From assembly GCA_964036195.1 (NCBI GenBank), contig OZ038458.1, positions 22,581,832-22,645,831 on the forward strand: 64,000 bases of DNA, read 5' to 3'. The notes beneath the pieces were generated by a model. It worked only from the letters and a program-made list of their open reading frames with translations. It was not told the origin of the DNA and searched no databases. Positions 3,278 through 59,714 of the stretch are shown here, piece by piece (position 1 is the stretch's first letter; every line of letters begins with the position of its first letter). The translations under genes and the position numbers were made by a program. Source of the DNA: Sphaerolaimus hirsutus. Taxonomy: Eukaryota > Nematoda > Chromadorea > Monhysterida > Sphaerolaimidae.

Positions 3278-6200
3278 ATGTCTGGGAGAGTGCGCGAAAA
3301 TTCTCGGAAAAACGGGTTTTCTTGGCCGCCGCACCCGCTGCAGCTGGCCTCGCTGCTGGTGGCAGTCCCAAGCCCTGTAAAGTGTAAAGTAAAGTGTCAA
3401 ATGTAAAGTGTCAATTGTCATGCAAATTTCAGTAATAAAATCTTTTCTTTTTTGTTTTGATTGACACTTTACTTTGCATTTGACTTTACATTTGACACTT
3501 TACTTTACACTTTACAGGGCTTGGGACTGCCCCCTGGTGAAGGTGTACCTGTTCGCTGTGGCCTTGGGCGTGCACACTTCCGGTGCCAGTCCCACACCCT
3601 GTACTAGACCCTGCAAAATGGAACATTTCTGGAAAATGTCAAAAGACATGTTTTCTATTTGCCAGTGTACGATAGAAAACATCACTTTTGACATTTTTTA
3701 CAACTTTTTTAAACGACAAAAAACTTTTTTTACATGACTTTTGACACCTTGCGTGAAACTTTACTTACAGGTTCTTTTTCACGATTATGATATTTTACAG
3801 GTACCTTTACATGACTATGACATTTTACAGGTACCTTTACATGACTATGACATTTTACAGGGAAATGGACATTTTACAGGGTTTTTATAGGGTCTGGGAG
3901 TGCACCCTGGCTTCAATCATGCAACCGACGCTTATGTGTCGCTACCCATTCGCTACGTACTTTTCGTCGTGAGTTGTGCATTTTTTGGGTGTTTTATAGT
4001 TTAGTAAAATATAAATAGTTTTGTTAGAATGCTTAAGCGATTATCGGTGAATTTTTTGTGAGGAAATAAAATCGTGGTACATGGTCCGGCTGAAAAGTCC
4101 CCGGGCAGTGCTCGCCATTCACGCTAGGGGTAAGCTACGGTTATAAAATTTTAACACGTTAATATATCAAGTGTTTTGAGTTATCACCCAAAATTTCACC
4201 CCTCTAGCTCTACTCACTGCGGAACTGTGGGGGTTACAATTTCGGTCATTTTGTACTGGTGTACAAATGGTGCTCTAGCTCAACGCTGCTTTAAGTTGTG
4301 ATCATGAAACTTTGGCTAGTGTAAGCCACCAGTGTTGGCAATGAGCTGATTGTATTCAACACTTTCATCAACATCATTGCTATTAAGGTAAAATTAATAT
4401 GTAGATCAGGGTGATGTGCAAGAAACGTGGGAACTGTGATGGATGTTTTTGGTGATCATCTGAGATCATGTTGTATTGCAGTGATTTTAATGTTGTTTTG
4501 AAATGTGCAGTAAATTATTATGTCCATTAAATTTCATTTGTGTTTCATTACTAATCTGTAGTGGACACATTACCTGTGTTCAACAGCAGTGTGCATGAAA
4601 GACGCCTCCTGTATTAACCTGTATTGACCAACCGTAGAGGCAGAATGATGAATTTGGTAGTGAGAGTAGTGACAGTAATGGCAATATGGACTAGGCTTAT
4701 GATATCATAGCTAATGTTGGTTAGTGCTGGCACATTGCCATCACTGGTGGCTTACTCTAGCTAAAGTTTCATGATCACAACTTAAAGCAGCGTTGAGCTA
4801 GAGCACCATTTGTACATCAGTACAAAATGACCGAAATTGTAATCCCCACAGTTCCGCAGTGGGTGGAGCTAGAGGGGTGAAATTTTGGGTGAAAACTCAA
4901 AACACCTGATATATTAACGTGTTAAAATTATATAACGGTAGCTTACCCCTAGCGCGAATGGCGAGCACTGCCCGGGGACTTTTCAGCCCGACCATGTAGA
5001 ATCATTGATCAGGGATTATTGGAGTTAATTTATAACTCGTAACGCATTGACTAACCGTCTTACCGACTTAAATTTTGAAAAACAGAATTTGAGGTAAATA
5101 TTATGGAGGGGGTATCATGCGGAGTATTAGGGCAGAGTTGTTAAAAGTACTGAACTTTTTTGAAAGTAAACGTAAAGTATTTTTTACTCACAGGTGAGTA
5201 CAGAAAACGTAAAATATTTTTTTAACTTTTACTCATGATTAAACGTGAGTAAATTACTTTTGTCCCAGAAAACGTAAAGTGAATATTTTTGAGACATTTT
5301 GCTCCAATTTTTCACTTAAAATCACTAATTTTCGAACTTTTCACTATCAAATTCACTAGTTAATGTGTTTTTGATTATTTTTATGCTACCTATTTTGGAT
5401 ATTTTGTCCCTCTTTTTAGCTCTTCTCTCCCTTTGTTTCGTTTATGCCTCGAAATACCCGTTTATGCCTCGAAAATAAAAAACCTGTTTGAAATACGTTT
5501 TCTGTACTCGCTTACTTTCAAAATGTACGCAAGTAAGTGAGTACCGGTATTTTTTTCGGGAGGGAATGTAAACGTATTTACGCACTACTATAGTATCCGT
5601 ATTTATCGAGTAAACGTAAATACGTTATAACAACTATGTATTAGGGGATGACATTTATTGTTACATCTAGCTATTTGCTGTAACATGAACATATTTGATG
5701 GAAGGGCGTCACAATGGGTCAAAGTACAACATAATGGACAAAAGTTCCATGTTGTACCCGCGTGAACGCGGCGGTGTACTGGTAGCGCTTGGGGCAGGTG
5801 TACGGCGTGGCGTGCGCGAGCGTGGTGTGCGCCACGGCGGCGGTGACGGGCATCGACCCGGCCGACGACAGCGTGCGCCACTCGATCAGGGCCACCGTGC
5901 GGCCCGCCTTCGACCGCGCCAAGCACAAACACGTCATCTCCGCCACGCACTACTGCAACATCTGCGAGCACACTGTGTCCGTCTGGTTGCAGCTCTTATT
6001 TGGTTGCTATTTTATTTTATTCACGCACCCATCTTTTAGGGTGTCCCAATTTTCCTGATAGATTTGTAGGGAAGTGGGCTATGCCCATTGAAATTTCATC
6101 GTGCAGCCACACTTCACTGATATCAGGGCAGTTTTGTGGCTTGTGTAAACAGCCCTGTCTCATAACTGTCAATTTACGTATTTAATTAACATAACTTTTG

Positions 6201-7090
6201 GCGTTTTGGGATGCAAAATTTTTTTTAGGTATACCGTATTACCTCGAATTATCCCCCCCCCCCCCTTGAATTAACCCCCCCTCGAATTAACCCCCCCTCA
6301 AAATGGGCTGGGGAAATAATAAACCCCCCCCTCGAAATACCCCCCCTCCGGAATGATGTACATCATGTATGCAATGTACATGATGTATTTAGGTATTACT
6401 ACTTATTCGCATCGCAGCTACTCTTATACGCTCATTTGTGTACAGATGTACATCTATAGCCCCAATATAACCTATATTCTCACATTGATTACCGTTTTTG
6501 AGTAAGAAATAGCGTATTCTTTACTACAAAGTCCACGAAATTTTCTGGCGAAATAATAAAACCCCTCCTCGAATAACCCCCCCCCCCCCCTCGAATTAAC
6601 CCCCCCTCAAATTTTGCTGGCGAAATAATAAACCCCCATGGGGGTATTTCGAGGTAATACGGTATATTTTTTTGTCTTGGATGGAAGTGACAATAATGTT
6701 TTAAGCAGAGAACATCATTTAAGTTTTGGATACCAACGTATGTTATTTTCAGTGAAATTTTATTATAATATATCACTCACACAAGACTAAAATTTAACCT
6801 CTCTGGAAAATCATGAAAAAATATAAATATAAAAAATCTGATATTTTCAAAACATAAATCTTAGATTTGTTCAATGCCAATTATACTAAAGACCAATTAC
6901 TTTGACACAGTAGGCAAAATTCGCAGCGACGAAACGTCGAAGCATTGCCGGCAGTGCAACAAGTGCGTGGTCCACTTCGACCACCACTGCAAATGGCTGA
7001 ACAACTGCGTGGGCAGGAGGAACTACAGCTGCTTCGTGGCGTACGTGGTGCTGACGAGCGCGGCGGCGGCCGTGTGCGCCTGCGTCGCCG
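3278..7090 (+). CDS. ZDHHC1: DHHC palmitoyltransferase, ZDHHC1/11-like, 5' part
   Basis: Integral-membrane protein S-acyltransferase that attaches palmitate to cysteines of target proteins on the cytosolic face of endomembranes. Exon 1 starts at ATG 3278 and ends 3968 before GTGAGT; it is interrupted by two fold-back elements (3360-3533 and 3584-3906). Its residues include [11 protein letters not shown], the N-terminal motif of this subfamily. Exon 2 (5798-5976) has IDPADDSVR and CNICEHTV. Exon 3 (6927-7090, before GTCAGT) has [10 protein letters not shown], then [17 protein letters not shown] with the catalytic DHHC cysteine. The exon 2-3 join, donor GT at 5977 and acceptor AG at 6925-6926, keeps the family spacing between CEHTV and KHC. 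Exon 2 start is less sure: its acceptor lacks a pyrimidine tract. Transmembrane helices 1-2 are in exons 1-2 and part of helix 3 in exon 3. The C-terminal exons were not found. Family assignment is firm; ZDHHC1 versus ZDHHC11 is not. Confidence 0.88.
3360..3533. mobile_element. CTGG fold-back MITE inside ZDHHC exon 1 (copy A)
   Basis: This is a 174-bp hairpin-forming element. The left end TGGCAGTCCCAAGCCCTG mirrors the right end CAGGGCTTGGGACTGCC, with long complementary arms of GTAAAGTGTAAAG-type words. CTGG is duplicated at 3356-3359 and 3534-3537. It splits the leucine-rich first helix; taking out element plus one CTGG rejoins CTG-CTG-GTG-AAG in frame. Confidence 0.85.
3584..3906. mobile_element. 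CTGG-type fold-back MITE inside ZDHHC exon 1 (copy B)
   Basis: Left end TGCCAGTCCCACACCCTGTA, right end roughly its complement (AGGGTCTGGGAGTGCAC). It is flanked by CCGG (3580-3583) and CTGG (3907-3910), a 4-bp duplication with one difference. The interior holds ACATGACTATGACATTTTAC-like direct repeats at 3787-3860. Removal joins VHTSG to FNHATDAY, which runs on to a GTGAGT donor. Confidence 0.72.
4080..4996. mobile_element. Mariner-like non-autonomous element with long inverted repeats
   Basis: It begins CATGGTCCGGCTGAAAAG and ends with the complement, flanked by TA on both sides. GGCTGAAAAGTCCCCGG resembles irritans-group mariner termini (known family feature). The inverted arms run about 250 bp. 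There is no transposase frame. It sits in intron 1 of the DHHC gene; a second copy is at 17335-18250. Confidence 0.82.
5133..5637. mobile_element. AGTTGTTAAA-ended MITE
   Basis: The ends CAGAGTTGTTAAAA and TTATAACAACTATG are inverted. The interior is AAACGTAAA-rich, with a GTACTCACTTACTT-type core. It ends about 160 bp before the DHHC exon 2 acceptor. A full relative is at 56696-57304, with partial ones near 7275-7420, 8815-8972, 18470-18615 and 19110-19290. Confidence 0.7.
6234..6662. mobile_element. TA-flanked CCGTATT element with C/G tracts
   Basis: CCGTATTACCTCGAATTA at the left and GAGGTAATACGG at the right form inverted termini between TA dinucleotides. Long C runs alternate with CTCGAAATA words. 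It lies within intron 2 of the DHHC gene (5977-6926) and has no coding content. Confidence 0.75.
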
Positions 7091-7149
7091 GTCAGTCCTC
7101 TCCTCGCTCGTCTCCACTCGGCCCTATGCACTCGGCATATGCCTTGGAA

Positions 7150-7275
7150 AGCGCCTCGACTTTGGCGCCATGACGCTTTTCCGACACCGCGCAAGCGCCA
7201 ATAGCGCCACAGCAAAATGGCGCAAAGCGCCAGCAGAAGCGCCATGGCGCTTTTTGCTGTGGTGCTAGCGCCAAC
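7150..7275. repeat. GGCGCC-rich repeat block
   Basis: Tandem and palindromic GCGCCA/TGGCGC words centre on the palindrome AGCGCCATGGCGCT. It lies just downstream of the last DHHC exon found. Translated frames are low-complexity artefacts. Confidence 0.7.
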
Positions 7276-8177
7276 AGAGTTGGTCAAATACTGGTATTTT
7301 TGGAAAACGGAAACGTAAACGTAAATACCTTTTCCAAAATGAAAGTATAAATACTAAAACGTAAGGTAATTTTAAAATACCTGGGAAAGCGTAAAATAAA
7401 ACGTAAACGTAAAAAAATTATTACCGTGTTTCATCTAATAGAAGGGCGCCCTTCATTTTTTCACTGACTTTCTATTATGGAGACACCGTCTTTTGGAAGC
7501 TGCCCTTCTATTTTTTCGCCGGTTTTTCAATCAATTTTCACGTTCTGTCAACGTTTTCCCAAGTGTTATGTCACAAAAAATTTATACTATGGCGATTCAT
7601 CGAGTTGATAAACTCGACGGACATTATAGAAGTCAATGGTCTAAGGAATTTTCGTCTGCGTATATTCATAGTTGGCACACGTCCAAGTTACCGTTTGCGA
7701 GAATGTTACCAAATATGAAAAACGCATGATTTCCGTCACCGTCAACGAAAATGACTGCGGAATGCGATTAAGCGACCGCAATTGGTTGCTGATGGCTGCC
7801 CACACATGAGTTGACGCATATGTTGACTTAATTACATTCCGCGGTCATTATCGTTGACGCGAATGGAAATCATGCGTCTTTTACTTCGTTCGTATAAAAC
7901 GCAACAGTAACTTGGACGCAGCGGTAAGTTCATACGTAATTTTTTGAATGAATTTTTCGGGACTGCGACGGTAAGATCTTACCTAAGACCTAACAATCCG
8001 ACGTTCTATAACGAGTTGTCTATCAAATTCACACCGTTCTCGCATAAAAAGTCGGATTGAATCAAATGTATCATGCCGAATGGAATCCGTCCATTCAAGT
8101 TCAAATTAAAAACACACGTCATTGGTAACGAAGGGCCGAATCACTGATTCGTTTCATGTCCGCCGAGTTTACATTTA
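7276..8177. other. Mixed repeat fragments; inverted repeat at 7725-7882
   Basis: This holds an AAACGTAAA-rich fragment (7276-7420), then an AATAGAAGGGC-type fragment (7430-7520) of the CCGTATTTC superfamily. A fold-back at about 7725-7882 pairs CATGATTTCCGTCACCGTCA with its near complement around GACTGCGGAATG. A plus-strand open stretch ending at 7729 shows no recognised domain; I infer transposon remnant. Confidence 0.4.
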
Positions 8178-8537
8178 CCGTATTTCCTCGAAATACCCCC
8201 CGGGGGTGATTGTTTCATAGTGGTCCCGAGAGGGGGGGGGTCAAACGAGGGGGGGGGTATTTCGAGGGGGGGGGGTTATTATTTCACAAGAAATTTTTTG
8301 AAAACCAAGTACGAAATTGTCGTCTGAAACGTACGCAGACGTCGAAAAATGCAACAAAAACCGCCATTTATAAGGTTCTGTAGACTAATATTAGTATGTA
8401 GATGGTATGTACACTGTTCTAACGTGACACCGACATTGTTTTAACGTGTGTTCTGCAGTACACTGAACACAAACTACAGTTATTGTCATGTACGTTCCCT
8501 TTACACTCAATTTGGGGGGTATTTCGAGGAAATACGG
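8178..8537. mobile_element. TA-flanked CCGTATTTCC element with G tracts
   Basis: Ends CCGTATTTCCTCGAAATA and GGAAATACGG, flanked by TA. The interior has GGGGGGGTATTTCGAGG repeats and a roughly 200-bp unique core. No open frame. Confidence 0.75.
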
Positions 8538-8972
8538 TAATCAAATAGCTCAAAATCAATCCACGGAAGCCACTAAATAACAGCATCCGCTGACTTTTTT
8601 AATAAGCATTTGGCACAATTCAAGTTTGGGAAGTAATACATAATACTCTGCACGGAGGTGGGGTCTAACTATAGAATAATTTGAATATTGAATATACCTA
8701 TTTTGAAAATACGGCTTCTGTGGAGGAAAAGTGTGCGCTGGCGCACAAATTTTTTAAAGTTGTCGGAAATTTATGACGGAAATTACATTTTGCCAAAAAA
8801 AATTGGGTCTCACAACGTTTTTTACGTTTTATCTGGTACCCGGGTATTTCGGCCAGGAAAACGTAACAAAACGTAACGGTATTTTATGAAAACGTAAACG
8901 TAAACGTAAGTATAAATACCCGAATAACCGGGTATTTCGGTAAACGTAAATACGTTTTTGCAACTCTGACTG

Positions 8973-9300
8973 AGCGCCAAGCGCCAAGCGCCAGCGCTAG
9001 GCATTTTGTTCCTGGCGCCGGGCAAATATAGCGCCAAAAGCGCCATGGCGCTTTTCGTGGGCATGGCGCCACAGTAGTGATGGAATGGCGCCATGGCGCT
9101 GGCGCCATTTAAGGGTGCCAAATGGCGCCGCGCCATGGCGCCATTGGCGCTTGGCGCCCTTTTTCTGTGGGGCCCTTGGCGCCTGGCGCCATCTTTCTGA
9201 AAGGCGCCATGGCGCCCTTGGCGCTTGGCGCCCTTTCTCCGTGGCGCCATTGGCGCCTGGCGCCCTGCCCTAAGAAGGGCGCCAAAATGGCGCCAGCATG
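8973..9300. repeat. GGCGCC-rich repeat block
   Basis: A dense array of GGCGCC, GCGCCATGGCGC and TTGGCGCTTGGCGCC words. Several overlapping open frames on both strands are produced by this composition and are not genes. Confidence 0.75.
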
Positions 9301-16138: not shown

Positions 16139-16142
16139 CTGG

Positions 16143-16364
16143 GGCCAGTTCCGCAAATAAATGAGAAGTGAGAAGGGAAATGGCAAAGGCGAAGTAAAAG
16201 CGCAAAGGCCAAGTGAAACGGCTAATGACTTGGCAAAAACGTAACAAAAATAAAAAGTAATTTCTTTTTGCTTTCGCCATTTCACTTGCCAATTCACTTG
16301 CCATTTCACTTTTACTTCGCCTTTGCCATTTCACTTCTCAATTCTCATTTTGCGGAACTGGCAC
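16143..16364. mobile_element. CTGG-site MITE, TTCCGCAAATA subtype
   Basis: CTGG is duplicated at 16139-16142 and 16365-16368. The ends GGCCAGTTCCGC and GCGGAACTGGCAC are inverted. The arms carry AAGTGAGAAGGGAAATGGCA and its complement. Confidence 0.75.
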
Positions 16365-16368
16365 CTGG

Positions 16369-19109: not shown

Positions 19110-19290
19110 AGTGAAAAGCTAAAACTGAACCGAAACTAAAACTGTGAAAAGCTTTTTTACGCTTTTAGTACCCGGGTATTTTGGCCGGGACAGCGTAAAT
19201 AAGCGTACGGGTATTTTATGAAAGCGTTAGCGTAAGTATAAATACCCATTTACCCGGGTATTTCGGGTAAGCGTAAATCTCTACCTACAG
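19110..19290. repeat. GCGTAAAT-rich repeat fragment
   Basis: Contains TACCCGGGTATTT twice and AAAGCGTAAGC words, like 8815-8972. This is a partial AGTTGTTAAA-family copy. Confidence 0.5.
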
Positions 19291-19369
19291 GGCTTGGGAT
19301 TGCCCCCTGCCCCTGGTGACATACTTTCACACAACCAAACATTGACCATTAATACTGATGTTAGAAGCA

Positions 19370-20593: not shown

Positions 20594-21412
20594 CAGGGTT
20601 GGCAAAATCTCAGAAAAAAAATAAAAATAAAATGGAATATTCAAGAATAAAATAAAATAAAATAAAATGGAAAATTTCAGAATAAAAATAAAAATTGTAT
20701 AAAAATTCCAATTTTTGTAAAATTGTATAAAAATTCATATTTTTGTAAAATTGTATCAAAATTCATCTTTTTTGTAAAATTTTATCTCATTGCTTGAGTT
20801 TGTACCTGTTTATTCACGGATCTGGGGGCAGTCCCAATCATTGTAAACTGTCAAATGTCATGTAAAATGTCATGCAAAGTGTCAATTGTCATGACAAATG
20901 TGAAGTAAAGTGTAAATTGTCATGACATGTACAAATTAAAGTATCAATTGTCAAGCAAATTGTGTCCAAATCTTATGTTTTATTTCTAAATCTTATGTTT
21001 TGTATCCAAATTATGTTGTTGTTGAATCCAAATCTTATGTGAACATTTGGATACAAAAACATAAGATTTGGATACAAAACATACTATGGATACAAAAACA
21101 CAAAATTTGGATACACAATTCACACTTTGCATGACATACATACTGCTTGCAACTTTTGAAAAGTAAGGGAAAAATTTGTCACAGGTTTTTCATGTATAGG
21201 TCAATTATAACATTATTCTGGTCTTGCATGCATGATTCTGATTTTTGTAAAATTTTTGCACAATTTTTGTAAAATGTGTCATTTTATTTTATTAATGACT
21301 TTTGGGAATAAAATAAAATAAAATGAAACAAGCATAAAATAAAAATAAATAAAAAATTTTATACAATTTTTATACAATTTTACTAAAATGAATTTTTATA
21401 AAACCAACCCTG
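20594..21412. mobile_element. hAT-type MITE, AATAAAATAAAATGG family
   Basis: Ends CAGGGTTGG and CCAACCCTG, with an exact 8-bp target duplication ATCATGTG at 20586-20593 and 21413-21420. The interior is AATAAAATAAAATGG and ATTGTATAAAAATTC repeats plus an embedded GGGGGCAGTCCCAATC-type sequence of the CTGG family. A second copy is at 60148-61189. Confidence 0.88.
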
Positions 21413-22373: not shown

Positions 22374-25300
22374 TCAAGTTTTAACAACACTTTTTGACTC
22401 CTTCAAGTGCACGCATGCAATGTGCCTACTCATTTGATCCCGGGACTCAAATGCGATACCGCAGTATGAGCATTCAAAGGGGCATTTATCCAGGTGTTTG
22501 TTTCTCACATGATATAGTCTAGTGTAGCCATGCTTAAACACCCTGGTGCCAATCCCAAGCCCTGTAAAGTGTAAAGTAAAGTGTCAAATGTAAAGTCAAA
22601 TACAAAGTAAAGTGTCAATTGTCATGCAAAGATCAGTAATAAAATCTTTTCTTTTTTGTTTTGATTGACACTTGACTTTGCATTTGACTTTACATTTGAC
22701 ACTTTACTTTACACGTTACAGGGCTTGGGACTGCCCCCTGGGACAATACAGACATAGGAATGTCTCTTTGGCGCTATGCAGCCTTGTATGGTGGGCCCAA
22801 TCTTTTTCAGTTTCAAAGAAATATCTGCAGATGCGACATTTGTAGATCTGTCCCGGTGATTTTGCTCTTTTGTCTGCATTTTGATTGATTGCCTGAAATT
22901 GTTGTCGTTTTGTAAACATTTTTCTAGTGAAATTTTGGCCCAGGTAGATCAAAGTGAGGAGAAATAAAATTTGGGTAAAAAACTACACAGGGCTCTGCGC
23001 TACACACTATTGAAAACTAGCAGAATTCTCTATGGACCTTTGGTCCGGTTTTGAAGTATTTTACACTTTCATATACCTATGCTAACTAGGGATGGCCGGG
23101 TTCCTCGAGGGTCCTTCTAAATCTTTTATTTAAAAAAAATTTAACCATCGAAGCAAAACAACACTAACAAAACAAAATTACATGCTCACCTTGGTAGATG
23201 TTGAATAATTTTTTGCTGGAGCGCAGTGCAGAGATACCTCGCTATTGGCCGGGCGGGGAGAAACCTTTAAAAACCGGAGAAACAAGCATACTGTATTTGC
23301 TTGAATTAGTTATTGTTATTGAACTGTATTAGTTACCCTTGAATAATGCCCCCACAACAATTTCCTCTGTAAGACGAGTGAGGATAAAAATAATCCCCCC
23401 TTAATAGATTTTATCAATTTGTTGTGCCCAATTTTAACAAAAATGGCTTTTTTGATTTAATAAAGCATATTTTGTGAAATGAGTTGGTAGAATCATGCTT
23501 GAAAATTTTGACGAAATAATAATTACAAACCTTGAATACTTCGCCCCCGCCGATACGAATTGGTGGGACAAAATTAGCAGAATTTAAACAGGAAATCGGC
23601 CGTTTAACAATATGCTTTCAAAATCATATTCATAACCCCAATGACAAACCTTCATTGTACTCTCCAAAACCGTTCCCTGATTTTCCACCTTTTCGTCCGC
23701 AGAAGCCACGTCCAAAGTCTCGGTCCAAAAGTTCACAAATTCTTGGCTCGAGTCCAATTTCATTTGCTTGTTTGTCTGCGCCGTGTGCCATCGCATGTGA
23801 TATTCCAGACTGGAAGACTTTGCAAATGCTTTACAACATTCTGGGCAACTGAAGGTTTGCTTTGGTGCATCGGGATCTTCATTTGGGTTTATTTTTTCCT
23901 GTGAAAAAATTAGGAGCGTGAGCGACTAGGGTTGGCCGATGTTTTTTTAAACGTTTTTTTTAAACATGACGTCTGAAATGTTTTTTTTTTAAAAAAACAT
24001 CAACCGAAATTTTTAGTACTAAGCACTATGTATTTTGAAAATTTTTTGCGCGCAAGCGCGCAATTTCATACACAAATTGACATTGGTGGATGTTTTCATT
24101 GGTTTTGTGGCATTTTTAGTATCAAAGTATCCATTTCTATGTGCTACCATGGGTTAATAAGCTGTCATATGTTGCTGTAGTATATAATATTGAGGTAATG
24201 TGCTTCCATGTACCTCCACAGTGTGTAACTTCACTCCCAACGTAACAACCTCCTTTTATAACCTTGTTTGATCACTATTCCGTGCCAAACTTTACCTGAA
24301 GTCGCAAAACATTCGACTATAAGGCGATATACAAACGTGTCGACAAAAAATGGATATTTTTGACACAAATCACCACTTATAATGCTATCCCATGGCTCCA
24401 CAGCCATTATATGGTCATATATAACATCACAGAGTGTTGCCACTGTCTGGTATACCTATATATGTTGACACGAGGTCATATCTAGGAGCTCAAAAAAAAC
24501 GTTTTTTATTTTAAAAAAAACTTTTTTTTAATAAAAAAACATCGAGAGAAAAAAACGTTTTTTTTCCAACCCTATGAGCGACAGTATATTCTATCGAAAC
24601 GCAGAAGAACATAGAACAAAACATATTTAGAACGGCAGCTAGAAATTACGTTAGGAATGTGCCAAAATACCTAAATATGAAAATCGATGGTGACATTCAA
24701 CATTCAAATATATATTTCATTTCTAATTGATGCTCAGATTGCAAATATTGCTCACGCTTCATTAAAAAAGGATATGTTCAAATGAGCAATGTGTGAAAAA
24801 TGGTGAAAATAGAACGACAGTCTGTAATAGAACGGCAGGCAAAAATAGAATTCTATTTCAGATCGAAAAATAGAAGAAATACAATTCACGCGAATTGACC
24901 CTTCCAATGTTTTCCATCTAATTGCTCACCCAGGGGTCTCGAATGGGGGGTTTGGGGGGGGATTACCCCCCCCCCAAACCGCCCAGCTATCTATCTATCC
25001 CGGAGGCGGCTCAGCTATCTATCTATACCGGAGGCAAAAATTTTGGGCTACTACCCCCTAAACCCCCCCCCCAATCGCTCAGCTATCTGTAGATACCTAT
25101 CTTATCTATCTGGAGCGATTTTTGAGAAACTACACCCCAATCTTCGCTCAAAATCGCTATTTTTCATACCTTTTTATAGATTTTCACTTTCAAAATCATA
25201 GTTCTGGTTCCTATTTGCCTATTTTCAGCTATTTTTAGTACTAAATGCTCTTGTGTACCATTTTGAGCTATTTTACACCTACTTTTAGCGATTTTCTCTA

Positions 25301-27633
25301 TTTTCTTCCTTCTATGTCCCGAAAGAGCCTATATATGGAACCACCACAACCCCGCCCAGAAAAATTTTCAGCTATCTATCCCTCCGGAGGAGCGATTTGC
25401 TATCTATCCAACCACTCAGAGGGTCCAAATTCAAGATACCCCTGTGCTCACCGAAGTTAAATCCAGCGGCTCGGGCTTTGGAATTACTTGGCATGATTCC
25501 AATTTAATTTTCCGATTTTTCTGCGCCGTGTGCCATCGCATGTGACGATCTAAACTGGAAGACTTTTCAAATGCCTTAGAACATTCAGAGCAAATGAAAG
25601 CTTGTTTTTGCGCATCGGGGTACTGATTGAGGCCGATGTTTTCCTGCAAAAAAGTTCCATGTGGGGTCTCCAATGGGGGATGACCCATGTTGATGCAAAG
25701 TTCTAAGTAACATCCCCTGAACACCCCCTACCAAATCGTCTAGCTAAATATTATCATTTATTTTCTCATCATATCACTTTAACACCCAACTCTTATACAT
25801 TCCAGCCATATATGTATTTTGAGATGTTTTTCACCTAGTTCTACCTAGGGATGGACAGTGTTTTTTTAACCGTTTTTCAAAACGTTTTTTTTATTATAAA
25901 AAACAGAGGCATCGAAACTAGGATTGGAAAAACACGTTTTTTTCAACTCCATGTTTGTTATTATAAAAAAAGTTGTTTTTTTTCAAAGTTCCCAGATATG
26001 GCCATGTGTCAACATACAGGGTGCGGCAATTTAGACGGACCCCATAAAGTTTTGAATAACTTGTCACTGGGTAGTCGGATAAACGTCAAATTTTAGGTCA
26101 ACGTTGACAACTAAATAGGAAAGGAGCCCTGAAAATATGGCTGCGATAGCTCCACTCGTTCTCAAGTTATTCATGGAAACGTGTAATTGTCACTTTTCCT
26201 CCACCTAGCTTTACGACCAACTACGCAAGCGCCCGCCGATTTCCTTATAGGCAAGGACGTAGCCAGGGGGGGGGGCGGGGGGGCGGCCGCCCCCCCCCTT
26301 CCCGGGCCGGACCAAAAAATGTGCCAGAAATGGCACTTCCAGAAGACGATTTTGTCGAGAGTTTGAAAAAATGTTGCGCGCAAGCGCGCATTTTCCCTTC
26401 ACAGCATATATTTTCGGCTGACCGGTCTCCGCGGCTTCAAAGTCAGTGAAAATGGACCCAATTCCTGTCCATGTCGCTCTATATGCCACTTTCATGGCAC
26501 TTCCAGAAGGCGATTTTGTCGCAGTTTGTAAAAATTTTGCGCGCAAGCGCGCATTTTACCGTCATACTACATATATTTACAGTTGACCAGTAGCCGCGGC
26601 CTCAAAGCCAGTAAAAAACCTAAAATTCCTGTCCCTGTCGCTGTATATGCCTGTAAGATACAGACATATACAGCTGTTTTGGCGCCAATGCCAACGCCAG
26701 TGGCGCCATGGCGTGGCGCCTACGAATGGCGCCAGCGCCATGGCGCCATTCCCGTACTGCAGAGGCAAAATTTTAGGGGGGGGGGGGGCGCCGCCCCCCC
26801 CGTTCGCCGGGCTCCGTATACAATCCGCCCCCCCCCCGCTCGAAAATCCTGGCTACGTCCCTGCTTATAGGCATAGCGAATTGGTGGTGGGCGTGCACGC
26901 ATTTAGGCATACAGCTGCGACTAGAAAATCAGAAAAAACCCTGAAAAAAAAACAATCCGATCCCGATCCCGGTCCCGATAGGTCAATCCCGTTTGAACGA
27001 TATCACAAGGTGGTGGAAAAGTGACAATTACGCGTTCGCATGAATAACTTGTGAACGAGTGGAGCTATCGCAGCCATATTTTCAGGGATCCTTTCCTATT
27101 TAGTTGTTAATGTTGACCTAAAATTTGACGTTAATCCGACTCAAACTATCTGGGAGCTTAAAAAACCGTTTTAAATTTAACAAAAACGTTTTTTTTAAAC
27201 AGGGTCGTTAAAAAACGGTTTTTGGCCATCCCTAGTTCCACCTATTTTCCCCTTTTTTTGTTTACATACTCTACAAAGACACTGAGCATCAGCTATTATG
27301 GATGGAAAACACAATTTTTTCAACGACCTCGCATTTTGAAAGAGCGCTTTTTGCTGGGACCATTGCGCTTTTTAAAAAGCAGCTTTTAAAAAACGCCATC
27401 CAAAAAAAGTGCTGGCTATCCGCTAATATTATCACAATCAAACGATCCCAATAAAAATCACCGACCTTTCTTTTTACCTTCACATCTTTCTGAACTACGG
27501 GGTCCCTCTGAAATGTGCTCAGAGCTTTGTTCACACATTTTTCATCCAATTGTGGAAATGAAACGTCCGATATCACTGGTTCATCCGAGACAAAAACCAC
27601 ACTGAATGGACGTTTGACTTTTTGACGTTTCGC
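22374..27633 (-). CDS. C2H2 zinc-finger protein, four 3' exons
   Basis: Probable nuclear DNA-binding protein. Exons on the minus strand, all phase 0: 27633-27478 (52 codons, basic start AKRQKVKRP, donor GTAAAA); 25643-25452 (64 codons, finger CSECSKAFEKSSSLDRHMRWH, donor GTGAGC); 23898-23650 (83 codons, finger CPECCKAFAKSSSLEYHMRWH, donor GTTTGT); and 22892 to stop TGA at 22376-22374. The last exon holds three fingers: CRICRYFFETEKDWAHHTRLH, one starting CLYC, and CSYCGIAFESRDQMSRHIAC followed by VH. A 189-bp element lies inside the middle finger; without it and one CCCTGG copy the finger has C-x2-C-x12-H-x4-H spacing. Exons two and three look like a tandem exon duplication. The N-terminal exon is not identified; 28222-28338 is a candidate with incompatible phase unless another exon intervenes. 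Confidence 0.85.
22547..22735. mobile_element. CTGG fold-back MITE inside a zinc-finger exon
   Basis: A 189-bp element of the same family as 3360-3533. The ends TGCCAATCCCAAGCCCTG and CAGGGCTTGGGACTGCC are inverted, with arms of TAAAGTGTCAAATGTAAAG words. CCCTGG flanks both sides (22541-22546, 22736-22741). It separates the CLYC half of a zinc finger from its HxxxxH half; reading through meets a stop within 10 codons. Confidence 0.88.
23927..24574. mobile_element. hAT-type MITE in zinc-finger gene intron
   Basis: Ends TAGGGTTGG and CCAACCCTA, with an exact 8-bp target duplication TGAGCGAC at 23919-23926 and 24575-24582. The inner ends are poly(T)/poly(A)-rich AAACGTTTTTTT sequence. Confidence 0.87.
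24598..24925. repeat. AATAGAACGGCAG-type fragment
   Basis: GAACGGCAG and AATAGAACG words match the interior of the CCGTATTTCTTC elements at 36461-36901 and 54338-54809. No intact ends. Confidence 0.45.
24929..25442. mobile_element. CAGGGGTCTCG-ended element beside a splice donor
   Basis: It starts CAGGGGTCTCGAATGGGG and ends TTCAAGATACCCCTG, with CTATCTATCCCGGAGG words and C tracts inside. Its right end lies only about nine bases into the intron after the zinc-finger exon ending at 25452, leaving that exon's GTGAGC donor intact. Confidence 0.6.
25846..27234. mobile_element. Composite hAT-type element with nested insertions
   Basis: Ends TAGGGATGG and CCATCCCTA, with near-identical 8-bp flanks GTTCTACC (25838-25845) and GTTCCACC (27235-27242). 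Inside are inverted arms of AGGAAAGGAGCCCTGAAAAT type (about 26085-26205 and 27005-27145), and within those another hAT-type element (26252-26863). All lie in the first intron found of the zinc-finger gene. Confidence 0.78.
26252..26863. mobile_element. hAT-type MITE ending CAAGGACGTAGCC
   Basis: Ends CAAGGACGTAGCC and GGCTACGTCCCTG, with an exact 8-bp duplication CTTATAGG (26244-26251 and 26864-26871). Next to the ends are long G/C tracts. The interior contains two diverged copies of a TTGCGCGCAAGCGCGCATTT stretch and a GGCGCC block at 26680-26755, a third nesting level. Confidence 0.82.
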
Positions 27634-31944: not shown

Positions 31945-32816
31945 CTTTTGACACTTCGCACAAACCAGAGTTTTATGCACATATTGAAGAAAGATTCTGC
32001 ACATAATACCATTTGGAAAAACAATCAATGAAGTCAAACCAAGCAGAAGAGCTGTGTCTGGGTTGATTCATTGAATGCAAATGCAACACAAATACAGTGT
32101 GCAAAGATGCACTGCAATGTGCACAACCAACATAAACAGACAGATGTGCATGTAGTGTGATAGATTCATGCTTGTAAATTTTGATGAAATAATAATTCCC
32201 CACCTGATTAATTCCCCCATTTAATAGTCCCCCCTCAACACGTCTGAGATGAAAATAGAAGTGGAATTGGAATTGTGTTAGTAAATAATGAAATTTGAAA
32301 TTTGACATTTTACATGGCATTTTACATGACTTTTAACACTTAAAGTGACAAATGCCTTGCAAAGTGTCAAAATTCATGTAAAGTAGCCTGTAAAATGTCA
32401 AATGTCATGCAAAGAGTCGTAAAGTCATGTAAAATACCATGTTAAACGTCAAATTACAATTTACTATATTTACTCAAATAATTCCCTGAGGAGATTATTT
32501 TTCATCACACCTTTTTGAGGGGTAACTATTTAAATGGTGGAATTATTCAAGTGGGGGAATTATCAATTCATCAAAATTTTCACCGAATCAAACCACACAC
32601 AGCTCTTCTGCTTGCGGTCTGACTTCAACGGTTCGTTCAAGTGGGGGAATTATATTTTCCTCACTCGTTTAACAGGGGGACATATTTAAGTGGGGGTAAT
32701 TATTAATGTAAAAAGGGTATGTTTTACTATTCATGTGACATGCTGCATGGAATTTTACATGACTTTAACCTTTGCATGACATTTGACATTTCCCACGGTC
32801 AGGGAGCTGCCCCTGG
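31945..32816. repeat. Fragments of AATAATCCCCC and TGTAAAATGTC repeats
   Basis: AATAATTCCCC words at 32180-32230 and 32470-32700 surround ATGTAAAATGTCAAATG words. Two stretches resembling AAGCAGAAGAGCTGTGT lie in opposite orientation near 32045 and 32600, suggesting a decayed inverted-repeat element. The minus-strand frame at 31973-32320 falls in this repeat. Confidence 0.45.
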
Positions 32817-33001
32817 GGGCAGTCCCAAGCCCTGTAAAGGGTAAAGTAAAGTGTCAAATGTAAAGTCAAATGCAAAGTAAAGTGTCAATCAAAACAAAAA
32901 AGGAAATATTTTATTACTGTCTTTGCATAACAATTGACATTTGACTTTGCATTTGACTTTACATTTGACACTTTACACTTTACAGGGCTTGGGACTGCCA
33001 C
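32817..33001. mobile_element. CTGG fold-back MITE
   Basis: Ends GGGCAGTCCCAAGCCCTG and CAGGGCTTGGGACTGCC, flanked by CTGG (32813-32816 and 33002-33005). It is 185 bp with the same hairpin arms as the three exon-interrupting copies. Its left neighbour ends in another CTGG-type terminus. Whether the right flank is exonic is unclear. Confidence 0.82.
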
Positions 33002-33065
33002 CTGGTCGCCGTGTTTCAATAATTTTGTCCAAACTGACAGCTGAGATCGCTTATGCGCCAATGCA

Positions 33066-48345: not shown

Positions 48346-48620
48346 TGCCAGACACTGAAAAAGAACCTGTAAAGTGTAAAAGACCCTGTAAAATGTCATG
48401 TGTCATGTAAAAGACCCTGTAGAATGTCATGTGTCATGTAAAAGACAATGTAAAGTGTCAAATGTCATGTGAAAGACCCTGTAAAGTGTCATGTGTATCC
48501 AAATCTTACTTTATCATATTTACATCTTATGTTTATGTATCCAACTCTTACTTTCTGACATGAGATTTAGATACAAAACATAAGATTAGGAAACGATAAA
48601 ATGATATTTGGATATACATG
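48346..48620. repeat. TGTCATGTAAAAGACCCTG direct repeats
   Basis: AAGACCCTGTAAAATGTCATG-like units recur four to five times, followed by ATCCAAATCTTAC words also found in the hAT copies at 20594 and 60148. Confidence 0.55.
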
Positions 48621-48625
48621 CCAGG

Positions 48626-48981
48626 TGCCAGTTCCGCAAGTGGAAAAGTTAAGAGTTAAAAGTTAAATGTTGAGTAAAATGACAAATGGCAAGTTAAGAG
48701 TTAAAAGTTAAGAGTTGAGTACAATGACAAATGGCAAGTTAAGGGTAAAGTTAAATGATAAATGATGAGTTAAGAGACAAGAGTTAAGTTAAATGACGAA
48801 TGATTAGTTAAGAGATAAGAGTAAAGTTTGGATAAGATTTGGATACACTTGCTTGACTCTTAACTTTACTTTTATCTCTTAACTAAGCATTTGTCATTTA
48901 ACTTTACTCTTAACTTGCCATTTGTCATTTTACTCAACTCTTAACTTTTAACTCTTAACTTATCCACTTGCGGAACTGGCG
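48626..48981. mobile_element. CTGG-type MITE, AAGAGTTAAAAGTTAA subtype
   Basis: Flanked by CCAGG (48621-48625) and CCTGG (48982-48986). The ends TGCCAGTTCCGCAAGTGG and CCACTTGCGGAACTGGC are inverted. The arms are repeated AAGTTAAGAGTTAAAAG words and their complement. Confidence 0.72.
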
Positions 48982-49038
48982 CCTGGTCGCCGGCACTCTC
49001 CAATAAGAATACCTACTAGCAGAGAGGATCTACACTAG

Positions 49039-49058
49039 GACACACACACACACACACG
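49039..49058. repeat. (CA)n microsatellite
   Basis: About ten CA units in a row, just downstream (minus strand) of the exon at 49082-49303. Confidence 0.8.
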
Positions 49059-49081
49059 CAGCGCGCTAGTCCACCGCTCAC

Positions 49082-49303
49082 CCTTTGGCACGGTGCCAGA
49101 CTTGAGCAGCATGGGGTTGTCCTGCTGGCCGGGCCTGGCCGCGGGCACGATGTTCTCCAGGCGGCAGTGCGCCGGCACGCGGTCGCACTGCCACTCACCC
49201 AGGATGGCCGGCTGCGACTGGTCCCTGGACGGGTCCCTCGACTCGCTGGGCACCGGCCGCAGCACCGCCTTGCTCGTCTGCGTCGACGTGTCCTCACCGA
49301 TCG
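49082..49303 (-). CDS. Exon of unrecognised protein, phase 1-1
   Basis: A G/C tract gives a pyrimidine-rich acceptor (CCCTCCCAG) on the minus strand; the donor is GTGAGC. It is 222 GC-rich nt, phase 1 both ends. Residues include GEDTSTQTSKAVLRPVPSES, then GEWQCDRVPAHCRLENIVPA and DNPMLLKSGTVPKG. Two cysteines and the symmetric phase suggest an extracellular module, but I recognise no family. An internal CTGGGTGAGT could be an alternative donor. The cysteine-rich exon 3 kb upstream on the same strand may belong to the same gene. Confidence 0.6.
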
Positions 49304-49615
49304 CTGGGAGGGGGGGGGGGGGGGTTTGTGCTCAAGCTGTCAAGTGACGTGACAAGTGACAAATTTATAGATGAAAGTTGATGAAAAGTGTCACTTTGTT
49401 TACTTAAATACCAACTTTTCTAGTCAGTTCCCCACTTGCAGATATGGCGCCAGACTTCTTTCCGCGAAAAACTCGCATAGATCGAGTAATTTTCCATGTA
49501 CTTCATCACTTTTATACTATTTCACACTGTGTCTAGGTGGAAAAATAATAAATTTAATTATACGAATAAGTTTCTTCACAAATTGAATTGCCACCGGACA
49601 TATAAACATCACAGT

Positions 49616-53636: not shown

Positions 53637-53638
53637 TA

Positions 53639-53946: not shown

Positions 53947-54337
53947 TATATAGGTAGATAAATATATTCTACATATGACACAGGAAAGTTGAAATCACAT
54001 AATTAACCAAAATTTAGTTAAATATAGTCGAGACGAATTTTGATATCAACTAGTGTCTGTGGGCCCAATGATAAGTCAAATTATAAATAGGTAATTAACC
54101 ATATGGTGCCAAAAATTATGAAACCATATTATAAAAACTAATGGATACGAGAGTACCTAGTGTTAAGTGTGTATAAAAAGGAGAAGTATATTAAGTAGTA
54201 AATAAATACAGACATATTTAGATGCCCATGCTTGCTGGCAATCGAAATATCAAAAAGTTAACACAACACATGTAAATGGCATTCATCATTGACTGAAAAA
54301 CACAAATTAAATGTGTAAACAACACACAACACACATA

Positions 54338-54809
54338 CCGTATTTCTTATAATAGAAGAGTGCTGTTCTACCTTTTTTGCTAACTTTTTTACCCGCCATT
54401 CTATCGGAGACTGCCGTTCTATTTTTTTACAAAAATTCTTCAAATTTTTTTCATTCGAACACACTTTTTTTATGAAACATGAGCAACATTCTAATACCAG
54501 AACCAGAGTATCAATTCAAACAAAACCAAATGTGAAAACAACAACTGAATCATTATGTTTGAACACCTTGAATGTTCTCACCGCCCATTTTTCAAATATT
54601 TCTGTGTTTTGGCACTCTTCCAATGTAATCTCTCCCTACCGTTCTATTGAAGGCTTCCGTTCTATTGATGGTGCCGTTCTATAGGAGGCAGCCGTTTGAT
54701 TTTTTCACGTGTGAAAAAAGCGCCAAAAACTTGCATTCTATTTGAGGTGCCGTTCTATTGCACTCCAATAATTGGAGGTAGGTATGCCATTCTATAAGAA
54801 TAAATACGG
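54338..54809. mobile_element. TA-flanked CCGTATTTCTTA element
   Basis: Ends CCGTATTTCTTATAATAGAA and TATAAGAATAAATACGG, with GCCGTTCTATT repeats. Same family as 36461-36901. Confidence 0.75.
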
Positions 54810-54896
54810 TATTGTATATGTTGACTCAACAAAAAACAACAGTGTAAAGTCATTTGAGTGAATGAAATAGTGGTGGAAAAAGCACCAGAAATTATG

Positions 54897-55117
54897 ATAA
54901 ATATACTCGGCAGACATGATACTCTACAAATAGATATGATTTATATCTTCGGCTGGCAGACGGCCAACCGAAAACTTATGAACCGACTCCCCACAAAAAG
55001 TTTATACACGAGGAATCCCTTGTTCAGTCAGCCGCAGTTCTCTGTGGACTGCGGCTATGACGTCAGGATGGAGTGGTTCCTCCGGAAAAATGTAGGGTGT
55101 AGTGTCGCCCGAGTATA
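54897..55117. mobile_element. TATACTCGG-ended element, second subtype
   Basis: Starts TATACTCGGCAGACATGATA and ends GTCGCCCGAGTATAC. The interior differs from the 35344 subtype and includes GACGTCAGGATGGAGTGGTT, also seen near 57965 and 56168. It abuts the next element. Confidence 0.58.
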
Positions 55118-55120
55118 CTA

Positions 55121-55549
55121 CCGTATTTCTCCTAATAGAAGGGCAGGTCTCCAATAGAAAAGCGGTATAGAAGGTACACTTTTTGGACTTATTTTGGGCC
55201 ACACAATAAATAGAAGGGCGGTCTCCAAAAGAAGGTACACAAACTGCTGGAATTTTGCCAAATGAATGAAAAAATAGAAAATATCGGTGGACTTTGTGCT
55301 TTGGTGGCTTTGGTTAATTGATTTGGTATTTTTTTAACATCAAATGTTGAATGAACTCTATAAATAATCATTCCAAAGACTGTCTGTGCAGTAACAATTT
55401 TAAAAACCTTGGCAGAACGCTAAAAAGTTTCTTAAAAATGGTGAAAAATAGAAGGGCAGTCTCCAATAGAAGGGCATTTCCGATAGAAGGGCGGGTAAAA
55501 ACGTTGACGAAAAAAATAGAAGGGCGCCCTTCTATAAGGAGAAATAGGG
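55121..55549. mobile_element. TA-flanked CCGTATTTCTCC element
   Basis: Ends CCGTATTTCTCCTAATAGAA and TAAGGAGAAATAGGG between TA dinucleotides, with AATAGAAGGGCGG repeats. Confidence 0.72.
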
Positions 55550-55704
55550 TAATATGATATTCTCAATAATCACGTGAGAATAAAAGTGGTAATTTGCATA
55601 CTCGGCCGACAACAATCAAAAAAAATAAAAAAACGGAGTCATGTACATTGTACAAGCGACAAAAGTTTTTTCCTGGAACATACGTTTCTTCTTCTTCACA
55701 ATTA

Positions 55705-56144
55705 CCGTATTACCTCGAAATACCCCCAGGGGGTTTATTATTTCGCCAGCAAAATTTGAGGGGGGGGGATAATTCGAGGGGGGGGGGGGGTTTATTCGAG
55801 GGGGGGGGGGTCTATTATTTCGCCAGAAATTTTCGGAAATTCCCCATACTCGGACGTAGAAAAATCAAACAATTACGTAGATGTATATGTATTTATAGGT
55901 ATAGCTAACTGTATATGCACATATACCCTACCCTAACATCACTCAATCATCAGTTTTAACGTGTGTTCTGCATTGTACAGATCACAAACTACGGTATTTG
56001 TCATGTACGTTAACTTTACACTCGATGTTAGGGGGGGTATTTCGAGGGGGGGGGGGTTATTATTTCCTCAGCCGAATTTTAGGGGGGGGGGGGTATTTCG
56101 AGGGGGGGGGTTAATTCAAGGGGGGATAATTCGAGGTAATACGG
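55705..56144. mobile_element. TA-flanked CCGTATTACC element
   Basis: Ends CCGTATTACCTCGAAATA and GAGGTAATACGG, with several G runs of 9 to 13 bases. Confidence 0.78.
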
Positions 56145-56695
56145 TATGATTTTTTTAAACGATGACTTCATGATGGAGTGTTTCCTTCAGATGTGGACCG
56201 CTGAGTATAAGGGAAATTGCAAATAAGTTACAAGTCAAGTGACAGGTATCTTCAGTGACATTTTTTTGTCAACTACTCCATCATCGACCAATTTTTCATC
56301 ATTTAACACTTGTCTTGTCACTTGAAGAATTAGCACCTGGCTCTAGATACCTATTTCCTCGAAATACCCCCACCTGAAATGAGTGTAAAGATACTTTTTT
56401 TGCCAAAAACTGCAGTTGTCATCTGTGTAATTCAGAACACGCGTTAAAAAAAATGACCGAGTTACATAAGAATGGGGCTTATACCATCTACATACTTATA
56501 AATTTAAGATCAAAAATTAAAAAATTCCCATCACACTGATCTCACTATCTTGCAAATCAAATTTTAATAAATACATGTCAGTTATTTTGACATTTGTCTA
56601 CATGTGCATATGTTACAAGCAACGCATAAGTACTGGGAGTTCAAAGACATTCAAGAAAAATAATAGACACCCTAAAAATACCCTCCTCAAATTAC

Positions 56696-57304
56696 CAGAG
56701 TTGTTAGAATTACTGAACTTTTTTTAAAGTATATGTAAATGTAAAGTATTTTTTTTTACTCACCACAAAGTATAGAAAACGTAAAATACTTTTTTTTACT
56801 CATACGTACGCGTAACTGTGGGTACTTTTTTGTGAGTGTTGAAACGACTACTTTTCTTCATAGAATGTGTAAAAGTGGGCACTTTTTCATAAGTGTACAG
56901 CACAACGTATGTTTTTTTCTATAAGCAGATGACAGATTATATAGTTTTCAAGGTCTCTTTTTTCTAGGAGATAAAAATTATCGTTCTCCGGACTCGTTTA
57001 CCACATCCATTGTCTCCACAACCATTTCGTTTTGGTTGCGAAATTTGAAATTTTTAAAGGCACTACCCCCGCATATCTAAAATATTCAATGGAACCACTC
57101 CTGTAAATACATAGCAGTGTAGTTACTTTATAAATATGTCCCACATTGAATTTTCATAAATACATTTTCCGTACGCGTACGCTTTGAAAGTGTACGCGTA
57201 CAAGTGCGTACGGTATTTTTTTGAAAAGTATATGTAAATGTATTTACCGCGTACTCGCGTACGCGTATTTTTCGAGTAAACGTACGTACCTTTTAACAAC
57301 TCTG
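56696..57304. mobile_element. AGTTGTTAGA-ended MITE, complete copy
   Basis: Ends CAGAGTTGTTAGAATTACTG and TTTTAACAACTCTG are inverted. The interior has GTACGCGTACG palindromic words and TAAAGTATTTTTTT. Relative of 5133-5637. Confidence 0.72.
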
Positions 57305-57498
57305 CAAATTATTTACATCTCTCAAAATAACCCCCTTGGGGTATTTCGAGAAAATACTGTAAAATTTTATGTGCTGTTCAACAATAAACAATGACTGGCC
57401 TTGTTTTTCCATTCCACTTTCAATGCCATTTCCAACACTATAATGGAGCATGCACAAAATTCCATCTCTAGTCATGAAACATTTGATTTTGTTTAATG

Positions 57499-59714
57499 TC
57501 AAGCAGACTGTTTCACTTGTACCAATAACATGACATATGTTATCACCAATGATGCAAGCTGTATTTTTTCAAAATTGAGTGGTACTAGACAAGGTTTTTT
57601 TTAAAAACTTTATAGAAATACTAAACTGTAAAAATGCTCATTCTTGTAATTGTAAACATGTTCAGGCAAGTGATGCCACAATCAACATAATGAAATCTTG
57701 TCAGGTAGCCATTTACTGCATTCTCAACCTGATTAAACACAAAAACAATGTAAATACATTTTATAAAAAATACAAGTTTTATGTATACTCAGTGGACCGC
57801 AAAGTATGCACAAAAATTAATGTGATAATTGTGGTTGTGGAGGATACTTTTAATGTATGCATTTTCACAAAAAGAAAGATATTAAAAAAATGGTGGAGTT
57901 GAGTACAATTTCGTGCCTGAAATAATCTTTTTCTTTTTTGGAACAATTTTTCTTTTTTAACGATGACGTCATGATGGAGTGGTTCCTTCAGAAACATTCA
58001 TAAGATGCGGTCCGCGGAGTGTAAGAGAAACATGATTCCAGATAAGCCTTGAATTTGTATAATCTTCCCTAGAATTATTCCCCCTTCAAGCACATGATCA
58101 ATTTGTTACGTTCAATTTGAACAAAATGGCACGTTCTTGTGTTAATAAATTTTATGGAATGAGTTGATAGAAACAAACTTTTGACAAAATAATATTTTAT
58201 ACCCTTGAAAGTCTGACAAAAAATAATGTCACAGTGTAATTATTCAAGCAAATAGTTTATTATGAAGAGTCTGGTGTAGCTCCAGTCATTGTCAATTTTT
58301 GGTAGACTTTCTAGGGGAATTATTAAATTAGTGATTGTTTAAGTGCCTTTGCATTGTAAACAGACCTCAGCATTGACCACATTTCCCTGGTTGAAAGTAA
58401 TTGCCAAATGCTGGGGGAAATCATTGATCTGGAAAAGAATACATTTTTAACAAAAAAAGAAATCTGTGAAAACTAGAGTGGCTAACAAATTTAAAGCCTT
58501 TCACCCACCTTTTCATTGACCATACCAGTGACCATAATCAGCGGAATATATGCACAGTAAATCACTACAAACTGAATGCTGACATTATCATTTTGGTAAG
58601 CTAGGAAATAAAAGACATTTATTACAAACATCAATGTATCAAGACTAAAAATTATGAAGAAATAAGTGCTTGAAAAGTCATTAAGATATTGACATGCTTG
58701 TGACAATTGCACATGACTTGAGCAGAACATTTTCACTGTACCTATCAATGAATTTTCATCACAGACAACTTTGACATGCTTTTCAAATTTACAACAATGT
58801 GTTTTCAGAATGTGATACAGTATTCCAACAGCAGCATACATATACAGGGTGAAAGCCAGAGAAATAGTATCAGTTAAAAAAATTGATAATTTGCCAAGTC
58901 TATTGAAAATGGACATATATGTACTCATTCCATTTTCAGTTATGTTGCCAGTGTTGGTCAACTTGTCAAAGTCCACAACAGACAAATAGAACACAATAGA
59001 AATTATTCCTAACACAAATAAAATGTAAAGTATGGAAGTGCATAAAAGCTTCTTGTAACTTTGAAAATGGAAATGTGGTTCTAAGAGGATACTTTTTATC
59101 ATGTTCAAAAATTTAGCATAACCATCATAGCACACTGTTGTCTTATAAATTACAAACATGAAAAACATGAGACGTCGAAAATGAATAAATTCAAAAAAAA
59201 TTCCCATCACACTGATCTCACTATCTGTCAAATCAATATTTCTTGGATCAAGACTCATCCCATTTTCAATATTCACAAAAATAGCCTGAAATTGATTATA
59301 TAGTAGCCCAATTAAAATAATCGTGATGGCCGACATTCTCAGCATGAAAATAGGAAAATATTTCATGTTTGTGCCATCCTGCCCACTGATTGAAACCATA
59401 CCAAGGCATTTCAGTAGAGTTTCGGGCACACAGGTGACATAGTCCACCAAGTTACTTCCAGGGGGCAGTCCCAAGCCCTGTAAAGTGTAAAGTAAAGTGT
59501 CAAATGTAAAGTCAAATGCAAAGTAAAGTGTCAATCAAAACAAAAAAGAAAAGATTTTATTACTGAACTTTGCATGACAATTGACAGGTCACTTTGCATT
59601 TGACTTTACATTTGACACTTTACTTTACACTTTACAGGGCTTGGAACTGCCACCAGTTGCGGCAATCGACTTGACTCTCGCATTCATTTTTTGATTTATT
59701 AGATTCTGTGACAT
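57499..59714 (-). CDS. Gustatory-receptor-like 7TM protein (7tm_7)
   Basis: Multi-pass membrane chemoreceptor of the arthropod GR superfamily. Minus-strand exon 1: ATG at 59714, coding to 59653, then a fold-back element, then 59457-58509 (337 codons in all, donor GTGGGT). The second M (MNAR) is an alternative start. Exon 2 is 58428-58366 (acceptor TTCTTTTCCAG, donor GTCTGT). Exon 3 starts at 58310 (acceptor TTCCCCTAG) with KVYQKLTMTGA, like the conserved helix-7 lead-in. The last exon, 57558-57499, reads LASLVITYVMLLVQVKQSA, matching the T-Y-x5-Q-F-like GR terminus (V for F). Between them exon 3's donor is unclear, and repeats fill 57580-58270. Several hydrophobic helices are visible (FPIFMLRMSAITIILIGLLY; SILYILFVLGIISIVFYLSV). 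About 390 residues, the usual GR size. Confidence 0.8.
57570..58275. repeat. Repeat insertions between receptor exons
   Basis: A TATACTCAGTGGACC-type element (about 57783-58022) and an AATAATCCCCC-type fragment (about 58045-58260) lie between the receptor's third and last exons. Plus-strand open frame 57579-57902 is not supported as a gene. Confidence 0.45.
59462..59652. mobile_element. CTGG fold-back MITE inside receptor exon 1
   Basis: A 191-bp hairpin element flanked by CCAG (59458-59461, 59653-59656; CTGG on the coding strand). The ends GGGGCAGTCCCAAGCCCTG and CAGGGCTTGGAACTGCCA are inverted. It splits the receptor after codon ACT (residue 20); removing it rejoins ACT-GGA-AGT-AAC in frame. 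An in-element ATG at 59532-59534 would otherwise start a protein lacking the true N-terminus. Confidence 0.87.

Follow-up and report, generated by a model that had tools for sequence, protein, structure and literature searches.

Fold-back transposable elements interrupt coding exons of three genes in a stretch of the Sphaerolaimus hirsutus genome and possibly reflect recent insertion

Results

Four fold-back elements interrupt coding exons of three genes

In a stretch of 64,000 nucleotides from the nematode Sphaerolaimus hirsutus (contig OZ038458.1, positions 22,581,832 to 22,645,831, assembly GCA_964036195.1; hereafter the window), coding exons of three genes are interrupted by fold-back elements. 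Three of these insertions, here called A, C and E, are copies of one palindromic miniature inverted-repeat transposable element (MITE) and lie in a DHHC acyltransferase gene, a C2H2 zinc-finger gene and a gene for a multi-pass membrane protein, respectively, while exon 1 of the DHHC gene carries a further fold-back element, A2, 47 bp from A. Every exonic insertion brings stop codons, so that the genes are broken as written, and deletion of the element plus one copy of its target yields a continuous frame in all four cases; on both points an earlier sequence-only reading of this DNA was correct. To plain recent insertion as the explanation we give close to an even chance. A young NuwaI-like, Harbinger-type MITE family would have entered exons of the three genes at CWG(G) sites, with the older-looking A2 beside A being separate from that family, and the 'restored' proteins would simply represent the exons as they were before insertion. 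The likeliest outcome would be disrupted or polymorphic alleles, with RNA-level rescue partial at most. In support of this explanation, exact target copies flank A, C, E and a fourth copy, D; A and E carry few private substitutions; a stop results from each exonic insertion; and GT-AG borders are absent from all four exact exonic junctions.

One palindromic MITE family and a second kind of element

The full copies A, C, D and E are 88-95% identical to one another. In loop orientation A, D and E begin GTGGCAGT and C begins GTGCCAAT, and the opposite end, read inwards, is GGGGCAGTCCC in all four. One terminal inverted repeat (TIR) thus has the end GGGG and the other GTGG in A, D and E or GTGC in C. 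The arms of A are identical at 44 of 45 terminal positions. Relative to the host gene, the loop lies in sense orientation in A and E and in antisense orientation in C.

The sequence-only reading had proposed one family at four exonic sites. Hairpins are indeed present at these places and A, C and E form one family, but A2 belongs to another, and copy D was overlooked. No match of A2 to A, C, D or E occurs among the blastn matches listed (E<=1e-4, at least 40 bp), where its matches are 48348-48492 and 32341-32414, and it resembles the MITE in the look of its outer ends only. The arms of A2 agree at 22 of 31 terminal columns, compared to 26-29 of 30 in A, C, D and E. Folding z-scores against dinucleotide shuffles were -17.2 for A, -19.3 for C, -20.9 for E and -8.2 for A2; with predicted folds far below the shuffle energies, the inverted repeats of all four are able to pair.

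Further related copies in the window are a single isolated end and two longer relatives, which share 85% identity across 296 bp (Table 1). A search of the window with Rfam and ARAGORN returned one tRNA and none of the elements. Pattern scans of viral and prokaryote genome contigs, neither collection being intended for animal genomes, gave 0 relatives, and no description of the A/C/D/E family was found in the literature searched, which covered the field in part.

Target sites and termini resemble those of NuwaI transposons

A, C, D and E are flanked by exact copies of CTG or CAG, extended to CAGG in D. The earlier term 'CTGG-flanked' is a fair description of A, C and E but fits neither D nor A2, whose target copies, CCG and CTG, differ by one base and form no clean duplication. 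The insertion at 48622 likewise has CAG on one side and CTG on the other, without clean duplication. The right target copy is followed by G in 7 of 7 insertions, namely A, C, A2 and two members of a related family (at 16139 and 48622) when read on the plus strand, plus D and E when read on the minus strand, versus 329 of 1541 plus-strand CWG sites. Thus, duplication of 4 bp, CWGG, would fit equally well.

NuwaI transposons have a CWG target and TIRs usually starting with GGG, and are reported from 16 animal genomes only (PMC4482050). With this group of PHIS (PIF/Harbinger-like) elements the A/C/D/E family has in common the CWG target, which by analogy favours recent insertion, one GGGG TIR end and an animal host. 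It differs in its other end, GTGG or, in C, GTGC, and its members are non-autonomous; no transposase for the family was found in the window, whereas a related autonomous element would be expected to carry open reading frames for a DDE transposase and a Myb/SANT protein. By its target and one of its two TIR ends the family resembles NuwaI, and it may be of Harbinger type.

The interrupted genes

After precise removal of A and A2, DHHC exon 1 reads MSGRV...RYVLFV, and the joined protein matches the Pfam domain DHHC (PF01529) at 2e-20. With A alone the first stop in the DHHC frame appears after 42 codons, and with A2 alone after 93. Later exons lie at 5798-5976 and from 6927 on; a motif scan for exons later still found none, and the end of the gene was not reached.

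Element C itself brings stops into the C2H2 exon, and its precise removal results in an uninterrupted zinc-finger exon whose zf-C2H2 score increases from 24.7 bits as written to 36.5 bits joined. The interrupted finger alone, with the exact junction, matches zf-C2H2 from end to end (1-23/23), weakly and below the Pfam cut-offs (E 0.07-0.12), and versions carrying 1, 2 or 6 extra residues at the junction gave no zinc-finger match. Two related C2H2 exons are located upstream, at 23587-23925 and 25434-25727 (57% identity over 63 amino acids).

The membrane-protein exon encodes 337 residues, and the portion of the protein covered has 6 hydrophobic segments. E itself brings stops, and its precise removal opens the frame. 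The protein gave no Pfam, NCBIfam or PDB match (E<=1 or 10), which leaves the earlier label 'gustatory receptor' unsupported; that identity is unconfirmed but possible. A single-sequence structure prediction of this protein, with a mean pLDDT (predicted local distance difference test) of 42.5, was set aside. At 56520-56558, a run of 13 residues shares 92% identity with the membrane protein (E-value 0.043) and may be what is left of a paralogue.

The joined flank of copy D gave no Pfam match in the one frame searched. On the minus strand D reads CAG/GT...CAG/G; within a coding exon, these borders would make it a GT-AG intron without further change.

Table 1. Coordinates of the elements and interrupted exons in the window (net insertion: element plus one target copy)
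Feature	Position	Strand	Net insertion	Remarks
MITE A including its two CTG(G) copies	3356-3536	+	3359-3536, 178 bp	palindrome; one arm shorter by a 17-bp deletion than in C, D and E
Fold-back element A2, family other than A/C/D/E	3580-3910	+	3584-3910, 327 bp	flanks CCGG and CTGG
MITE C including its two CTG(G) copies	22543-22740	+	22546-22740, 195 bp	loop antisense to C2H2 gene
MITE D	32813-33004	-		CAG/GTGGCAG...CCCCCAG/GG, exact GT-AG geometry
MITE E with both target copies (sense strand CTG(G))	59459-59656	-	59462-59656, 195 bp	
Single isolated end of A/C/D/E family	19286-19309	-		
Longer relative of A/C/D/E	20822-21160 (far end approximate)	+		no gene recognised nearby
Longer relative of A/C/D/E	60376-60870 (far end approximate)	+		A/T-rich setting like 20822; no gene recognised nearby
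DHHC exon 1	3278-3968	+		ATG 3278 to donor GTC/GTGAGT; interrupted by A and A2
DHHC exon 1, coding pieces	3278-3358, 3537-3583, 3911-3968	+		
C2H2 zinc-finger exon	22376-22892	-		acceptor TTTCAG; stop adjoins 22376; interrupted by C
Multi-pass membrane-protein exon	58518-59714	-		ATG 59714 to donor AAG/GTGGGT; E near N terminus

Splice sites at and near the exact junctions

In sense orientation, the borders at the exact junction are GT...TG in A, A2 and E and GG...AG in C, and GT...AG in D on the minus strand. The earlier statement that the precise junction is not obtained with any GT-AG pair therefore stands for the exonic cases (0 of 4), but frame-keeping GT-AG options that change at most 3 amino acids are available: 2 for A, 1 each for A2 and C, and 0 for E. 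Among them are options that remove 2 residues in A and add 3 in A2. The first of these would leave six residues between HPLQ and YL, as in vertebrate ZDHHC1/11, a resemblance on which we do not rely. Looser in-frame options, including GC donors, number 17, 12, 24 and 10 for A, A2, C and E.

Splice scores were computed with generic matrices, not derived from this species. The acceptor of DHHC exon 2 scores -0.3. A and E carry a strong acceptor, TTTACAG (score 5.7), 19 nt upstream of the border TG. The best-scoring in-frame option of E combines it with an exonic GC donor (total 8.7) and alters the N terminus, and that of A combines it with GTAAAG (total 6.0) and adds 21 amino acids. When the elements were shuffled, at least one option within 3 amino acids occurred in 248 (A), 59 (A2), 232 (C) and 158 (E) of 400 sequences, and options scoring as well in 130 (A), 52 (A2) and 192 (C) of 400. 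The near GT-AG options of the real elements are thus neither more frequent nor stronger than those of shuffled ones.

Human TG acceptors are found only where an AG lies no more than 28 nt away, and the survey that reports this describes none as constitutive (PMC2374985). With TTTACAG 19 nt upstream of the border, A and E could conceivably follow a GT-TG route under this rule.

Frame restoration, age of the copies and their location in exons

A target-duplicating insertion into an intact exon always restores the frame upon removal, so that four of four cases are expected under every explanation. Frame restoration hence cannot separate excision from recent insertion, and we rejected it as evidence of excision because the argument is tautological.

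Private substitutions, counted with gaps left out and two columns ambiguous, amount to 1/175 in A, 6/192 in C, 5/186 in D and 2/192 in E. By these counts A and E look young and C less so. In simulations of neutral decay since insertion, which assume that private changes post-date insertion and 0.12 indels per substitution, the frame was still open with a probability of 0.70 for the DHHC gene (at the age of A), 0.26 for the C2H2 gene and 0.27 for the membrane-protein gene. Each value is compatible with recent death of the gene concerned. The joint chance of about 0.05 for three open frames is suggestive at most, and age set against open frames was discarded as too weak an argument.

Several observations weigh against plain recent insertion. 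A2 looks old, with its 22/31 matching columns and target copies differing by one base, yet the DHHC frame is open as far as it was read; at an assumed A2 age of 5%, the simulation leaves a DHHC frame free of constraint open with a probability of 0.036. This has to be read with the proviso that a fold-back may arise with unequal arms and that there is no second A2 copy for dating. C carries six private substitutions, yet its host exon is open. The old-looking A2 in an open DHHC frame, together with the dependence of the C finger on an exact junction, leans towards tolerance of the insertions. In addition, the known exons comprise 2415 bp, that is 3.8% of the bases and 5.0% of the CWG sites in the window, and 4 of 8 related copies (A, C, D, E, A2, the single end at 19286 and the relatives at 20822 and 60376) are exonic (binomial 3.7e-4; 0.005 and 0.021 at 2x and 3x coding share). 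Without A2 this applies to 3 of 7 copies (binomial 0.0038; 0.026 and 0.074 at 2x and 3x coding share). Purifying selection should make exonic copies still rarer. However, the window was chosen for its exonic insertions, so these figures are no clean tests, and the inference from exon excess to tolerance was rejected because the binomial null is itself free of selection against exonic copies. The excess instead points to insertion preference, luck or the choice of the window. A fold-back detector reported 27 regions, 3 of which overlap known exons, all three being copies of the A/C/D/E family; it missed A2.

Other repeats and open frames in the window

A second fold-back family is represented at 16139-16367 and 48622-48985, with ends G(T/G)GCCAGTTCC, CWG flanks and a G after the target. 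An inverted repeat at 61825-62312, with 227-bp arms that are 99% complementary, adjoins an assembly gap of 200 N. Long open frames are present on both strands at 49019-49349, where one minus-strand open reading frame gave no Pfam match.

Discussion

Possible ways of removing the elements from transcripts or from DNA

Recent insertion ranks somewhat ahead of two explanations in which the elements are removed from RNA. The sequence-only reading had suggested hairpin-guided excision as in SOS splicing, in which the paired arms would be recognised, the element cut out and the mRNA ligated (by RTCB in SOS splicing), making the exonic copies orientation-independent introns without splice sites. We regard this as unlikely, though as a serious competitor. 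Stable predicted hairpins (z from -17 to -21 in A, C and E, -8 in A2), loops in either orientation, exact junctions without GT-AG in all exonic cases and a C-interrupted finger that is matched, if weakly, with the exact junction only are all consistent with it, and SOS splicing is described as a metazoan pathway in a review (PMC13247085). However, of the six private substitutions of C, three are unpaired in the predicted fold, two form G-U pairs and one is paired in the loop; being mostly unpaired or G-U, they give no sign of conserved pairing. Moreover, the hairpin of A2 is far less regular, and the restored frames carry no information on the matter. That this animal would routinely strip hairpin MITEs from transcripts by their paired arms, in either orientation, and accumulate them in coding exons is doubtful.

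Introner-like removal by the spliceosome, drawing on the GT at the element end plus an AG or TG supplied by the target copy, or on GT-AG (GC-AG) sites a number of codons away, seems to us rather improbable. Its appeal lies in the GTGG start of the elements in loop orientation, which a CAG target converts into exact GT-AG borders in D and a CTG target into GT-TG in A and E, as also seen in A2, in the TTTACAG of A and E within the reach of the human 28-nt rule (PMC2374985), in the high-scoring in-frame options of E and A and the near options of A and A2, and in the introners reported from copepods among animals (PMC9860276). But C would have to use either GG as donor or a junction whose added residues abolish the finger match, comparable options arise in shuffled elements, the survey of human genes describes no constitutive TG acceptors, and D, the sole copy with exact GT-AG, shows no coding flank in the frame compared to Pfam. 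Removal from DNA, by programmed elimination or somatic excision with expression of an element-free copy, is very improbable. MITEs are a likely source of the internal eliminated sequences excised in the ciliate Blepharisma (PMC9942856), a non-animal precedent, but nothing in the window points to such a process, and precise programmed excision in an animal would be extraordinary. For recent insertion, the reading that we prefer, we infer both the mode of transposition and the absence of efficient rescue. The insertions are real and their setting is interesting, while any mechanism of removal is unproven.

Comparison with known systems and implications

As in SOS splicing, DNA transposons with pairing inverted repeats are found here in animal exons, but as several natural copies in neighbouring genes, seen in genomic sequence. 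Introners are likewise repeated elements with TIRs and short direct repeats in coding sequence (PMC9860276), with the same element in several genes, as is true of A, C and E in three genes. The non-canonical hairpin introns of Amoebophrya are also repeated TIR elements with borders other than GT-AG (PMC7789003); they rest on RNA-seq, whereas the elements described here come from genomic sequence, and from an animal. If the transcripts are not healed, the window would be a record of a recent MITE burst damaging genes. If they are healed, it would present a natural case, in several genes, of hairpin-guided transposon removal from animal mRNA. Such a case would illustrate how exonic transposons can be tolerated by a genome and, perhaps, how introns lacking splice sites originate.

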